This document shows, in pieces, positions 11,194 to 30,664 of a stretch of 64,000 nt of DNA. Under the pieces are notes generated by a model. The model did not search any database. It was given only the letters and a program-made list of their open reading frames with translations, and was not told the origin of the DNA. The stretch comes from Silanimonas sp. GTDB taxonomy: Bacteria > Pseudomonadota > Gammaproteobacteria > Xanthomonadales > Xanthomonadaceae. The number at the start of each line of letters is the position of its first letter. Position 1 is the stretch's first letter. The stretch spans positions 1 to 64,000 of the forward strand of contig JAGXTI010000022.1 of assembly GCA_018334015.1 (NCBI GenBank). The letters are read 5' to 3'. A program made the translations under genes and the position numbers.

Positions 11194-13753
<2,560 letters not shown>

Positions 13754-25663: not shown

Positions 25664-26622
25664 GCGCCGCGCGCCACCGCCCGGCCGCCGCCCGGCGCAG
25701 CCGCTTCGAGGGCCCGGGCGGGGCGGCCTGGGGCCGCGGCCATGCCCGCGCTTTCGCTTTCGCCTTCGCCCGTTGGCGGGCCACGCCGCTGGCCAGCGCC
25801 GCCACCACGGCGGTGCTGGCGCTGGCCTTGCTGCTTCCCCTGCTGCTTGGCCTCGCCTTGCACAATGCCGGCCGGCTCGCCGGCACGCTGGAGGCCTCGC
25901 GGGCGATCAGCCTCTTCCTCGCCATGGACCAGGATGCAGCGGCGGCAGCGGCCCTCGCCGAGCGCCTGCGGGCGCGGCCCGAGGTCGCCGCGGTCAGCCT
26001 GCGCAGCCCGGAGCAGGGCCTCGAGGAGTTCCGTCGCATGAGCGATCTTGCCGACAGCCTCGAGCTGCTCGACGGCAACCCCCTGCCCTGGGTGCTGGTG
26101 GTGACGCCGCACGCTGAGCCGGCGGCGCTGGCTGTCATGCTGGCGGCCGAGCCCGGGGTCGAGACGGTGCAGTACGACGCCGCCTGGCGCGCCCGCCTCG
26201 GTGCCTGGCTGGCCTTCGCCAGCCGTGCTCTGGGGCTTTTGGCGGTTCTGCTTGCCGCCGGGGCGGTGCTGGTGGTGGGCAACACCGTGCGCCTCGACCT
26301 CGCCGCCCGCCACGACGAGATCGCCCTGCTGCAACTGCTCGGTGCCGACGACGCCGACATCCGCCGGCCGCTGCTCTGGCTCGGTCTGCTGCACGGTGCC
26401 GGCGCGGCCCTGCTGGCACTGGCCGGCGCTGGCCTGATCGGTCTGCTGCTGGCCGGGCCGCTGGCGGCGCTGGCCGCGAGCTACGGCGGCGGCTTTGCCC
26501 TGCACGGCCCCGGCCTGCCCGGCCTGTCCGCCACGCTTCTCGCCGGTGCGCTGCTCGGCTGGCTTGGCGCGCGGGTGGCGACCGGCCATGATCTGCGTTC
26601 CCTTCGTCCGGCCGATCGATGA
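25660..26622 (+). CDS. ftsX: Cell division protein FtsX
   Basis: A 320-residue membrane partner of FtsE. A basic cytoplasmic N-terminus is followed by one transmembrane helix (about 50-70, AVLALALLLPLLLGLAL), a periplasmic domain of about 100 residues, and three C-terminal helices, the FtsX/MacB plan. NPLPWVLVVTP lies in the periplasmic part. It overlaps both ftsE and the downstream response-regulator gene by 4 bp, so the three are one transcription unit. Confidence 0.95.
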   Translation: MSAARHRPAAARRSRFEGPGGAAWGRGHARAFAFAFARWRATPLASAATTAVLALALLLPLLLGLALHNAGRLAGTLEASRAISLFLAMDQDAAAAAALAERLRARPEVAAVSLRSPEQGLEEFRRMSDLADSLELLDGNPLPWVLVVTPHAEPAALAVMLAAEPGVETVQYDAAWRARLGAWLAFASRALGLLAVLLAAGAVLVVGNTVRLDLAARHDEIALLQLLGADDADIRRPLLWLGLLHGAGAALLALAGAGLIGLLLAGPLAALAASYGGGFALHGPGLPGLSATLLAGALLGWLGARVATGHDLRSLRPADR

Positions 26623-27464
26623 GCACCCCCGCCTTCCGCGCCTTCGACAGCAGCTCACCGCGCATCCTCGTGGTCGACGGCTCGAAGGTGGTGCGCAAGA
26701 TGATCGAAGGCGTGCTGCGCCAGCAGCTGCCGCAGGCCGAGCTGATGCTCTGCGAGAGCGGCGCCGAAGCCCAGCAGGCCCTGCAGCAGGGCGCCATCCA
26801 CCTGGTCAGCACCGCCTTGCGCCTGCCCGACATGGACGGGCTGGAACTGGCGCGCTACCTCAGAGAGCACACGCCGCAGGCCTACATCCCGATCATCGTC
26901 GTCTCCGGCGATGTGCAGGACCGGCTGGAGACGCGCTCGATCACCGACGATGTCACCGATTACTTCGACAAGTCGCTGGGCTTCACCGCCCTGGCCGCCT
27001 TCATCAAGGGCTATGTGGCGCCCGAGGGCACGCCCGGCGGCGAGGTGCTCTACGTCGAGGACAGCAAGGTGGTGGCGATGGCGACCCGCCGCATGCTCGA
27101 GAAGCACGGCTTCCGGGTGGTGCATTGCAGCGGTGTCGAGGACGCCATCGCCTGGCTCGAGTCGGCGCTGGTGCAGGGCCGCGTGCCCGGCGCCGACGTG
27201 GTGCTGACCGACGTTTATCTGAAAGGCGAACTCACCGGCAAGGAACTGGTCAAGGCCATCCGCGAGGACTTCGGCTACCCGAAGGGCCAGTTGCCGGTGC
27301 TGGTGATGACCGGCGATGCCAACCCGGCCAACCAGACCGCGCTGCTGCGCGCCGGGGCCAACGACCTCGTGCTCAAGCCCATCGAAGAGCGCTTGCTCAT
27401 CACCAAGCTGCTGTTCCAGTTGCGCGTGGGGCGGATGCTGCGCGAGCGGCATGGGCAGGCCTGA
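26619..27464 (+). CDS. Double-receiver (REC-REC) protein, first REC degenerate
   Basis: A 281-residue protein of two receiver domains and nothing else. REC1 (about 12-125) begins [16 protein letters not shown] and has [13 protein letters not shown], where alanine occupies the usual phospho-aspartate position; only the lysine in YFDKS is kept. REC2 (about 140-270) has [12 protein letters not shown], the phospho-acceptor in [20 protein letters not shown] and LVLKPIEE, so it should be phosphorylatable. It overlaps ftsX by 4 bp and ung by 14 bp. I infer a single-domain-type signalling adaptor. No output domain or cognate kinase is adjacent. Its presence in the ftsEX unit hints at a division or envelope role, which is unproven. 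Confidence 0.85.
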
Positions 27465-28191
27465 GGCGAGCCTTGGCGGCACAGTCACCGGCGCTGCGCC
27501 GGACCGGGTAGCGGGCCGGCTTGCGCCCTCCTGGCAGGCCCGCGTGGGTGATCGGCTGAAGAGCGAGGCGATGCAGGCCCTGGCCGCCTTCCTGCGCGCC
27601 GAGAAAGCCGCCGGCAAGACCCTCCACCCACCGGGCCGTCTGATGTTCGCCGCCTTCGACGCCGTGCCCTTCGAAGCGGTCAAGGTCCTCATCCTCGGCC
27701 AGGACCCTTACCACGGTCCCGGCCAGGCCCACGGTCTGAGCTTCTCGGTGCCGCCGGGCGTGGCCATACCGCCCTCGCTGCTCAACATCTTCAAAGAGAT
27801 CGAGCGCGACCTCGGCCTGCCCCTGCCGCGCCACGGCTGCCTCACGCACTGGGCCGGGCAGGGCGTGCTGCTGCTGAACGCCGTGCTCAGCGTCGAGGAA
27901 GGTCGCGCCGGCAGCCACGCCGGTCGCGGCTGGGAGGGGTTCACCGATGCGGTGATCGAAACCCTTTCCCGCGAGCGCGAGGGCCTCGTCTTCCTGCTCT
28001 GGGGCAGTTACGCCCAGAAAAAAAGCGATCTCATCGACCGCCAGCGCCACTGCGTGCTGAAGGCCCCGCACCCCTCGCCGCTGTCGGCCCACCGCGGCTT
28101 TCTGGGCTGCGGGCATTTCGGCAAGGCCAACCGCTGGCTGCAGGGCCGCGGCCTCGCTCCGATCGACTGGTCGCTGCCACCGGCAGGCTGA
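27451..28191 (+). CDS. ung: Uracil-DNA glycosylase
   Basis: A 246-residue family-1 uracil-DNA glycosylase that removes uracil from DNA. The catalytic water-activating motif is [18 protein letters not shown] (Asp85) and the second motif is HPSPLS (His207). The minor-groove wedge region [17 protein letters not shown] is also typical. The ATG at 27451 overlaps the receiver gene by 14 bp; the open frame further upstream is just shadow. The N-terminal ~25 residues before the first helix vary in the family. A long repeat array follows its stop. Confidence 0.96.
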
Positions 28192-28720
28192 ACGGCCCCG
28201 ACGTGGCCCGGCCGGAACGCGCCTGCCCTCGCGCCTGCCGACGCGCCCACCCTCGCGCCTGCCGACGCGCGACCTGCGGACGCGACGGCTCAGGCTCCGC
28301 GTCCCGCTGCGCATTCGCCGCCGCTCGCCCTCCATGGCTCGCTTCGCTGTCCACGAGGCCGCGCTGGCGCGGCGCTCGCTGACGGGCGTCGGCCGAAAGA
28401 TGCGAAGCGAAGATAGGCTTCGGAAGACGGGCTTCGTGCTGCTCACGCCATCACCGACACAGCCGCGAAGCACCCCGCCAGGCAGGCTGGGGGCCGGCGG
28501 CGGATTTCGAGGGCCAGCCCAGTGATCAGACGCCAGGCCCGCAGGGTGCGCCCTGGACGGGCGCACCGACCGAGGGCGCAGGGAGGCGCCCTTCGGTCGG
28601 CCCGTCGGGTTTCTTGCCGCACAGCAGATCGGCCCGAGTCCGCCGTAGGCCCCGGCCTGTCGTGGCGGGGGGTGCTGCTCCGGGCGCGTCCCGGCCTGCT
28701 GGAGCGCGGAATAAGGCCAC
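28192..28720. repeat. Modular intergenic repeat array, copy B
   Basis: Directly after ung. Two partial tandem copies of GCGCCTGCCCTC/GACGCG sequence lead into GCCTGCCGACGCGCGACCTG (from 28257). The GAGGCCGCGCTGGCGCGGCG segment, the GCGAAGCACCCCGC block (about 28464) and the paired hairpin block (28546-28603) follow. Hairpin 1 stem GGTGCGCCC/GGGCGCACC is identical to copy A, but the loop is TGGAC instead of GGGAT. Hairpin 2 keeps CCGACCGAGGGCGC with a different loop. A block ending GCGCGGAATAAGGCCA matches the front of copy A (11259-11272). No coding potential was found. Confidence 0.8.
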
Positions 28721-29170
28721 GCCCTCGCACCTGCCCTCGCGCCTGCTCTAGCGCCTGCCCTCGCGCCTGCCGACGCGCGACCTGCGGACGCGACGGCTCA
28801 GGCTCCGCGTCCCGCAGCGCACTCGCCGACGCTCGCCCTCCATGGCTCGCTTCGCTGTCCACGAGGCCGCGCTGGCGCGGCGCTCGATGACGGGCATCGG
28901 CCGCAAGCGAAGCACCCCGCAAGGCAGGCTCCAGGCCTGCCGAAACGGGGGTGGGGCTCCGGGTGCGTCTCCGGCCTGTGGGGCGCGACGCCCCAGCACG
29001 CTTCGCGCCTGCCGACGCGCGACCTGCGGACGCGACGGCTCAGGCTCCGCGTCCCGCTGCGCATTCGCCGCCGCTCGCCCTCCTTTGACTCGCCTCGCTG
29101 TCCTTCAGGCCGCGCTGGCGCGGCGCACGCTGACGGCCCCATCAGGGGTGCCGGCTCCAAAATGGTCGAT
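28721..29170. repeat. Modular intergenic repeat array, copies C and D
   Basis: Two more copies of the GCCTGCCGACGCGCGACCTG module start at 28765 and 29007. Each continues through GGACGCG/CGCGTCC (a 7-bp stem around ACGGCTCAGGCTC) and the GCCGCGCTGGCGCGGCG palindrome. The stretch before 28765 has several CCCTCGCGCCTGC tandem units. Copy D ends with CCGGCTCCAAAATGG (29151-29165), a variant of the boundary motif seen at both ends of copy A. The rpoH promoter begins 14 bp further on. No gene is present. Confidence 0.75.
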
Positions 29171-29178
29171 GAACGCGT

Positions 29179-29205
29179 TTAGCACTCGTCACATTCGAGT
29201 GCTAA
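29179..29205. promoter_or_regulatory. Perfect CIRCE element (HrcA operator) in the rpoH promoter
   Basis: TTAGCACTC-N9-GAGTGCTAA matches the CIRCE consensus at every position, with the exact 9-bp spacer. It overlaps a likely sigma-70 promoter: -35 TTAGCA (29179-29184), 18-bp spacer, -10 TAAAAT (29203-29208). HrcA bound here should block rpoH transcription and be released on heat stress. The remaining leader to the ATG at 29235 is short. Confidence 0.93.
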
Positions 29206-29234
29206 AATGAGACCCTGTCGTCGGAGGATCGACC

Positions 29235-30095
<861 letters not shown>

Positions 30096-30097
30096 CC

Positions 30098-30664
30098 ATG
30101 AACACCCCCTTTCCGCCGCCGCCCTCGACCCCTCCCCGCTCCGCCCGCCGGATCTGGCCCTGGGCACTGGGCTGTTTCACGCTCCTGCTGCTCGTCGGTG
30201 TGCTGCTGGTGGCCGGCATCTGGTTCGGCATCCGGGCGCTGGGCCAGATGAGCCAGCAGATGGTCGCCGCCGTGCCCGGCGTGCAGGAGCAATTCGGTGA
30301 GATCACCGACGTCGGCATCGACTGGGGGGCCATCAGCGCCGCCGCGGCCGCCGGGCGTCAGGTGATCGTCTTCGACCTCAGTGGTGCGGCCGGTCTTGGC
30401 GGGCTGGAGATCGAGATCGACCCCGGCTCCGGCGCCTTCCGCAGCGCGCAGCTGACGCTGCCCAACGGCGAGGTCCGTGAGCTCGACACCGCCATGCTGG
30501 CGCGTCTGCAGGCCCTGCAGGAAGGCCAGCTGCTGCCGCTGCTGCCGCTGATCCTGCCGGCACCGACCGGGCCGGCTCCGGCCGAACCCGCGCCGATCGA
30601 GCCCGCGCCGGCCGAGCCTGCACCAGCCGAACCCGCGCCGACCGAGCCTGCACCGACGAACTGA
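30098..30664 (+). CDS. Single-pass membrane protein with Pro-Ala-Glu repeat tail
   Basis: A 188-residue protein I do not recognise. A proline-rich start (MNTPFPPPPSTPPRSARR) precedes one transmembrane helix (LGCFTLLLLVGVLLVAGIWF, about 26-46). A small alpha/beta region to about residue 140 follows, then a tail of imperfect EPAP(A/I/T) repeats. The tail is encoded by near-identical 15-base units, so its length may vary between strains. It begins 2 bp after rpoH and is probably co-transcribed. The stop is 13 bp from that of priA, which is convergent. No catalytic motif is visible. Confidence 0.6.
   Translation: MNTPFPPPPSTPPRSARRIWPWALGCFTLLLLVGVLLVAGIWFGIRALGQMSQQMVAAVPGVQEQFGEITDVGIDWGAISAAAAAGRQVIVFDLSGAAGLGGLEIEIDPGSGAFRSAQLTLPNGEVRELDTAMLARLQALQEGQLLPLLPLILPAPTGPAPAEPAPIEPAPAEPAPAEPAPTEPAPTN

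Follow-up and report, generated by a model that had tools for sequence, protein, structure and literature searches.

The gene that begins at position 29235 of the window (the whole stretch of DNA analysed here, 64 kb long) encodes the heat-shock sigma factor sigma-32; its product passes the NCBIfam model TIGR02392 (RpoH; 402.4 bits, cut-off 323.1). A perfect inverted repeat, TTAGCACTC-N9-GAGTGCTAA, occupies positions 29179-29205, starting 56 nt 5′ of the rpoH ATG, and matches the CIRCE operator of the HrcA repressor with 0 mismatches. The upstream neighbour is ung, and a protein with two receiver stretches of the response-regulator type (26619-27464) lies between ftsEX and ung, also 5′ of rpoH. 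The features of the locus are as follows:

27316..28191, + strand: ung (uracil-DNA glycosylase), upstream neighbour, found by domain search; the start given for it probably lies too far 5′
28218..29136, + strand: region separating ung from the rpoH promoter, with three GC-rich dispersed repeat copies, not repeat throughout, found by repeat search
29163..29169, + strand: sigma-E -35 position, where most relatives have GGAACTT and the window has TGGTCGA; box lost by alignment to relatives
29179..29205, + strand: CIRCE (predicted HrcA operator), perfect 9-9-9 inverted repeat, 0 mismatches
29179..29184, + strand: weak sigma-70-like -35, TTAGCA, within the CIRCE left arm, from a consensus scan
29186..29190, + strand: slot of the sigma-E -10 box (TCNNA in most relatives), reads TCGTC, its A lost by alignment to relatives
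29200..29208, + strand: putative extended -10, TGCTAAAAT, made of the CIRCE right arm and three further bases, with TG before the second hexamer
29223..29227, + strand: ribosome-binding site GGAGG, read from the sequence
29235..30095, + strand: rpoH (sigma-32), 286 aa, identified by the curated RpoH model

The original prediction had described positions 29179-29208, i.e. CIRCE and the remainder of the TAAAAT hexamer (29203-29208), as an exact HrcA operator overlapping TTAGCA and TAAAAT hexamers, and both parts of this description were borne out. Scanning the 64 kb with up to 3 mismatches gave no CIRCE match besides 29179-29205, and a chance origin was rejected since 100 dinucleotide shuffles of the window gave zero matches. 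The two hexamers lie 18 nt apart and, with a TG from the CIRCE right arm one base 5′ of the second, form a putative extended -10 sigma-70 promoter with 9 of 12 consensus matches (spacing tested, 16-18). It was the sole site reported by a sigma-70 consensus scan of both strands of 28100-30300 (shuffle mean 0.1). Counting from this -10, the rpoH leader would be expected to be about 20 nt long.

A suitable repressor is encoded in the same genome (G000; 2.25 Mb, 41 contigs). A profile search gave one HrcA match, with 297 bits vs. an HrcA equivalog cut-off of 197, in which both the winged-helix DNA-binding domain and the C-terminal domain were found. A genome without hrcA, which would have spoken against the original prediction, was rejected on the agreement of the family and domain searches. 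The gene belongs to a cluster in the order hrcA-grpE-dnaK-dnaJ (grpE, hrcA and rpoH were assigned by family search; dnaK, dnaJ, groES and groEL by eye from their translations). A search for further CIRCE sites, also suggested in the original prediction, yielded one more, with 3 mismatches, starting 83 nt 5′ of groES. The sites at rpoH and groES were the only CIRCE-like sites in the whole genome with up to 3 mismatches, and a reversed control pattern gave no match in the same whole-genome scan. CIRCE was not found 5′ of hrcA, the best match in the roughly 400 nt scanned having 7 mismatches. Because there are just two CIRCE-like sites in the genome and none 5′ of hrcA, the predicted targets of HrcA are rpoH and groESL. 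Relatives contained at most 3 CIRCE-like sites per genome in whole-genome scans; the best matches at 30 of their hrcA loci, scanned with the orientation of each locus unchecked, had 6-9 mismatches. Sigma-32-like promoters were also seen, with a 13-of-13 match 5′ of groES and an 11-of-13 match just 5′ of dnaK.

We then compared rpoH upstream regions in two sets of genomes. The gene could be located in 58 of the 60 relatives, G000 included (G014 and G052 were dropped, having no RpoH match at 1e-70), and in 78 of 80 named genomes from many orders (L145, with 57 nt of upstream DNA only, and L160, a partial gene, were dropped). Allowing up to 3 mismatches, CIRCE was present 5′ of rpoH in 38 of the 44 hrcA-bearing relatives, G000 among them, at distances of 37-68 nt. 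Four more had 4-5 mismatches and one of the remaining two, G049, has both arms intact around an 8-nt spacer, and was counted as lacking CIRCE. Where hrcA was not detected, the site was found in 1 of 14 relatives and absent from the other 13. The named set behaved similarly (37/42 with hrcA vs. 3/36 without), giving 4/50 genomes without detected hrcA in both sets together; neither hrcA nor an rpoH CIRCE was detected in the enterobacterial, Vibrio, Pseudomonas and Shewanella genomes among these 78. It should be noted that the hrcA-positive counts include two weak calls, G102/L125 (46.6 bits) and G130/L154 (18 residues only, at the edge of a contig).

The exceptions run in both directions. G018, L086, L100 and L135 have hrcA and no usable rpoH site, while a site without detected hrcA occurs in G006 (a 310-contig draft) and in L094, L105 and L133 (metagenome assemblies). 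The sites of these last three have 1 mismatch, and assembly incompleteness may explain why hrcA went undetected in them. On a FastTree tree with sites of up to 5 mismatches, 8 supported pairs gave 4.7 changes of hrcA and CIRCE in the same direction, 0.1 opposite and 3.2 with no difference (median p 0.0625); with up to 3 mismatches, the 8 supported pairs gave 3.8, 0.1 and 4.1, respectively (median p 0.125). The link between hrcA and CIRCE is thus consistent when relatedness is allowed for, and only borderline. Together, the co-occurrence of site and repressor across genomes, the CIRCE-like site at groES and the DNA-binding domain of HrcA support the original proposal of an HrcA operator over the rpoH promoter. 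The accompanying claim that this is unusual for a gammaproteobacterium is wrong, because CIRCE 5′ of rpoH is the common state in hrcA-bearing relatives; it occurs in many other gamma- and betaproteobacterial genomes as well. A table of 2004 also gives a CIRCE 5′ of rpoH for Geobacter sulfurreducens (PMC545781).

When the rpoH sites were aligned on CIRCE, GGAACTT emerged as another conserved motif, separated from the operator by 9 or 10 nt on its 5′ side. For this alignment we used sites with up to 5 mismatches: 47 from the window's order (43 genomes and the four loci L083, L084, L085 and L087, one species possibly being represented twice) and 39 others. Judging by the closest named RpoH loci, this order is probably Lysobacterales and the family Lysobacteraceae. 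The control was 35 distinct groES sites among 64 loci, fetched for holding a CIRCE-like site. With up to 1 mismatch and a gap of 9 or 10, GGAACTT was present at 40/47 sites of the window's order (36 at gap 9, 4 at gap 10), 20/39 of the others (16 and 4) and 0/35 groES sites; at any other offset it occurred at one site at most. We take GGAACTT, 15-17 nt and TCNNA to be the sigma-E promoter consensus. Since GGAACTT ends 9 or 10 nt before CIRCE, the sigma-E -10 begins within the left arm, whose last two bases are its TC, at a spacing of 16-17 nt from GGAACTT. The A of TCNNA was found at 41/47 and 22/39 rpoH sites vs. 3/35 groES sites. A T at position 6 of the sigma-70 -10 (TAANNT), which with the CIRCE right arm forms an extended -10 in most relatives, was found at 45/47 and 38/39 rpoH sites vs. 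11/35 groES sites.

The two sigma-E boxes come and go together. In the window's order, the A was present in 39/40 sites with GGAACTT and 2/7 without (Fisher p 8e-5, relatedness ignored), and in the other set in 19/20 with and 3/19 without (Fisher p 4e-7, relatedness ignored). On the FastTree tree, 6 supported pairs gave 4.9 changes in the same direction, 0.1 opposite and 1.0 not together (median p 0.0625).

The operator sequences themselves also vary. A matched two-arm variant, TTAGCAGTC...GACTGCTAA, is common at the rpoH CIRCE of the window's order (e.g. L181, L186 and L187). There, a left-arm G occurs at 20/47 sites and a right-arm C at 25/47; at groES, the left arm has C at 35/35 sites and the right arm C at 9/35. 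These variants may mean that HrcA binds its two targets with unequal affinity. In L083 (Xanthomonas pisi), G008, G013 and G023, the left arm is changed to CCGGCAGTC or CCAGCAGTC, with hrcA present and the sigma-E box kept.

A class-wide scan used GGAACTT, 9-10 nt and CIRCE with an 8-9 nt loop, leaving the A and the T at position 6 out of the pattern. Of the 369 genomes of the class that were scanned, 51 carry this composite, once in each, and none carries the reversed pattern. Thirty of the 51 loci were fetched; all 30 carry the composite 45-161 nt 5′ of an rpoH relative and all 30 have the T at position 6. The A was present in 48 of the 51 matches. Among genomes in which neither hrcA nor CIRCE was detected, 30 of 45 have a sigma-E-like promoter within 250 nt 5′ of rpoH (0.4 expected from shuffles). 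The sigma-E promoter therefore looks the wider feature, with CIRCE apparently superimposed in those lineages that retain hrcA.

The window departs from this pattern. GGAACTT is retained, at a gap of 9 nt, in every one of the genus's 7 other genomes, whereas a scan of the window's + strand from 28151 to 29260 that tolerated 2 mismatches in GGAACTT detected no sigma-E promoter. The loose sigma-E pattern with up to 2 mismatches had 24 matches window-wide vs. 16.1 expected, a number reached by 5 of 100 shuffles, and no match between ung and rpoH. From the alignment, the window's species seems to have lost both sigma-E boxes at rpoH. An absence of sigma-E as the cause was rejected: the RpoE and RseA families both match in G000, and rpoE keeps its own GGAACTT-N16-TC, as seen in 6/6 genomes of the genus inspected (G000 and 5 of the 7 others). 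Because RpoE and RseA are encoded and rpoE retains its box, the loss is confined to one promoter. The rpoE box of G000 is followed by TCGGT, differing from TCNNA, and this genome shows no enrichment of GGAACTT-N15-17-TCNNA, the strict pattern (3 matches vs. 9 for the reversed control). Having been made without sight of the relatives, the original prediction did not include the overlapping sigma-E promoter or its loss.

The DNA upstream is also altered in the window, where ung and rpoH are 1043 nt apart vs. 108-148 nt in the three relatives in which both ends were found. The repeat copies lie at about 28218-28399, 28726-28907 and 29003-29136, and another is present at 11279-11409. A 131-bp query had at least 40 matches in G000 (91-100% identity in the 40 scored). 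With up to 40 candidates scored per genome, the repeat was not found in 4 of the genus's 7 other genomes, and the remaining 3 had only weaker or shorter matches. The arrival of the repeat may coincide with the loss of the sigma-E boxes. One could instead suspect an assembly or mis-binning artefact beside the repeats: one copy ends 42 bases 5′ of CIRCE, and six of the 40 matches listed begin no more than 110 nt from the start of a contig, so that the repeat breaks the assembly. We consider such an artefact very improbable, however, since positions 29137-29178 lie outside every repeat reported and the A of the -10, inside CIRCE's own loop, is lost too.

We think it likely that CIRCE is a genuine HrcA operator doubling as the rpoH promoter, at which HrcA would repress sigma-70-dependent transcription and, in relatives, gate both the sigma-E and the sigma-70 promoters. 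Housekeeping RNA polymerase would start rpoH at the extended -10 provided by the right arm, and HrcA bound to CIRCE would cover both hexamers, blocking the promoter. HrcA activity depends on GroEL. Unfolded proteins occupying GroEL would thus cost HrcA its activity and release rpoH and groESL together. New sigma-32 would then add to groESL and dnaK transcription, until free GroEL restored HrcA. The two-tier cascade of the original prediction, in which release of HrcA raises sigma-32, is plausible on this scheme. In relatives, HrcA would also gate the envelope-stress input, because the sigma-E -10 shares two bases with CIRCE; the bound repressor would cover this -10 and so exert a veto. With the sigma-E promoter gone, just the HrcA/sigma-70 part would be left in the window's species. 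In Xanthomonas campestris, RpoH could not be deleted without a second copy (PMC6085468); some sigma-32 must therefore arise while HrcA is active.

Two other explanations of the operator deserve consideration. In E. coli, sigma-32 is set by translation and by DnaK/FtsH-dependent stability. If the same mainly held here, the rpoH CIRCE could be an inherited relic that HrcA binds with little added effect. Stenotrophomonas maltophilia presumably belongs to the same family as the window's species. After 10 min at 42 C its rpoH mRNA was not significantly changed while rpoE was up 5.9-fold (PMC6479208), which favours the relic; the lone Stenotrophomonas locus in our set, L160, is from another species and comes without upstream DNA. 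The left-arm changes mentioned above point the same way, in that L083, G008, G013 and G023 keep hrcA with 4-5 mismatches at the rpoH CIRCE, mostly in the left arm. We nevertheless regard a relic as unlikely: the arms are perfect in the window and in distant genomes, and the sites are mostly missing where hrcA is missing. Nor does the predicted start of the mRNA (29215-29480) look unusually structured, folding no better than shuffles (z 0.21); an RNA thermometer, though possible, is unsupported.

The palindrome might also owe its conservation to the promoter sequences within it, TTAGCA and TGCTAAAAT, and not to HrcA. The arms do contain both hexamers, and the T at position 6, just outside them, is conserved. 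We find this hardly credible, as it leaves unexplained the two matching arms, their fixed spacing, the site at groES and the absence of the element where hrcA is absent. A wider generalisation is possible and, in our judgement, falls a little short of probable: in gammaproteobacteria that keep hrcA, and some betaproteobacteria, rpoH may often be driven by an element of about 45 bases that combines the HrcA operator with overlapping sigma-E and extended sigma-70 promoters, which would let a repressor tied to GroEL veto the envelope-stress route. In the E. coli type of sigma-E promoter, the operator would have disappeared together with hrcA; the window's species would show the reverse, the sigma-E part having gone and HrcA remaining as the main transcriptional input.

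The closest precedent is in Geobacter sulfurreducens, where a CIRCE 51 nt 5′ of rpoH was predicted in 2004 (PMC545781, Table 8). The consensus operator is identical to that of the window, rpoH is a target in both, and CIRCE is also found at groESL; unlike in the window's genome, the hrcA-grpE-dnaK-dnaJ operon of G. sulfurreducens has a CIRCE of its own, and the passages of PMC545781 consulted make no mention of an overlapping sigma-E promoter. Among the titles and abstract openings listed, mostly without subscription papers, we found no report of CIRCE overlapping a sigma-E promoter at rpoH. Permina and Gelfand (2003) may have described rpoH CIRCE sites in beta- or gammaproteobacteria before. 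Within the literature searched, then, the composite anatomy is new, CIRCE 5′ of rpoH having already been predicted in print (Geobacter, 2004). The element shared by sigma-E, HrcA and sigma-70, with its one-sided loss in the window, is a more interesting result than the rpoH CIRCE alone. If the composite works as we read it, many proteobacteria would join cytoplasmic chaperone load and envelope stress in one stretch of promoter. Natural losses on both sides (hrcA and CIRCE absent with sigma-E kept, or the reverse, as in the window) would make this logic directly testable on short promoter fragments.

The classical Bacillus-type CIRCE stands at groESL and dnaK. Operator and repressor are alike in the window, but there it is rpoH that is predicted to be regulated, and both promoter hexamers come from CIRCE. 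Control of rpoH is modelled on E. coli, which is not known to have HrcA and whose rpoH sigma-E promoter is called P3. The E. coli-type GGAACTT-N16-TC is exact 5′ of rpoH in three enterobacterial loci (L127, L140 and L158), whereas in hrcA-bearing relatives it is nested with CIRCE. PMC5493296 counts E. coli rpoH among the known RpoE-dependent promoters. The enterobacterial genomes of our set and the window are thus opposites, the former having no detected hrcA or rpoH CIRCE, the latter having kept CIRCE and apparently lost the sigma-E boxes.
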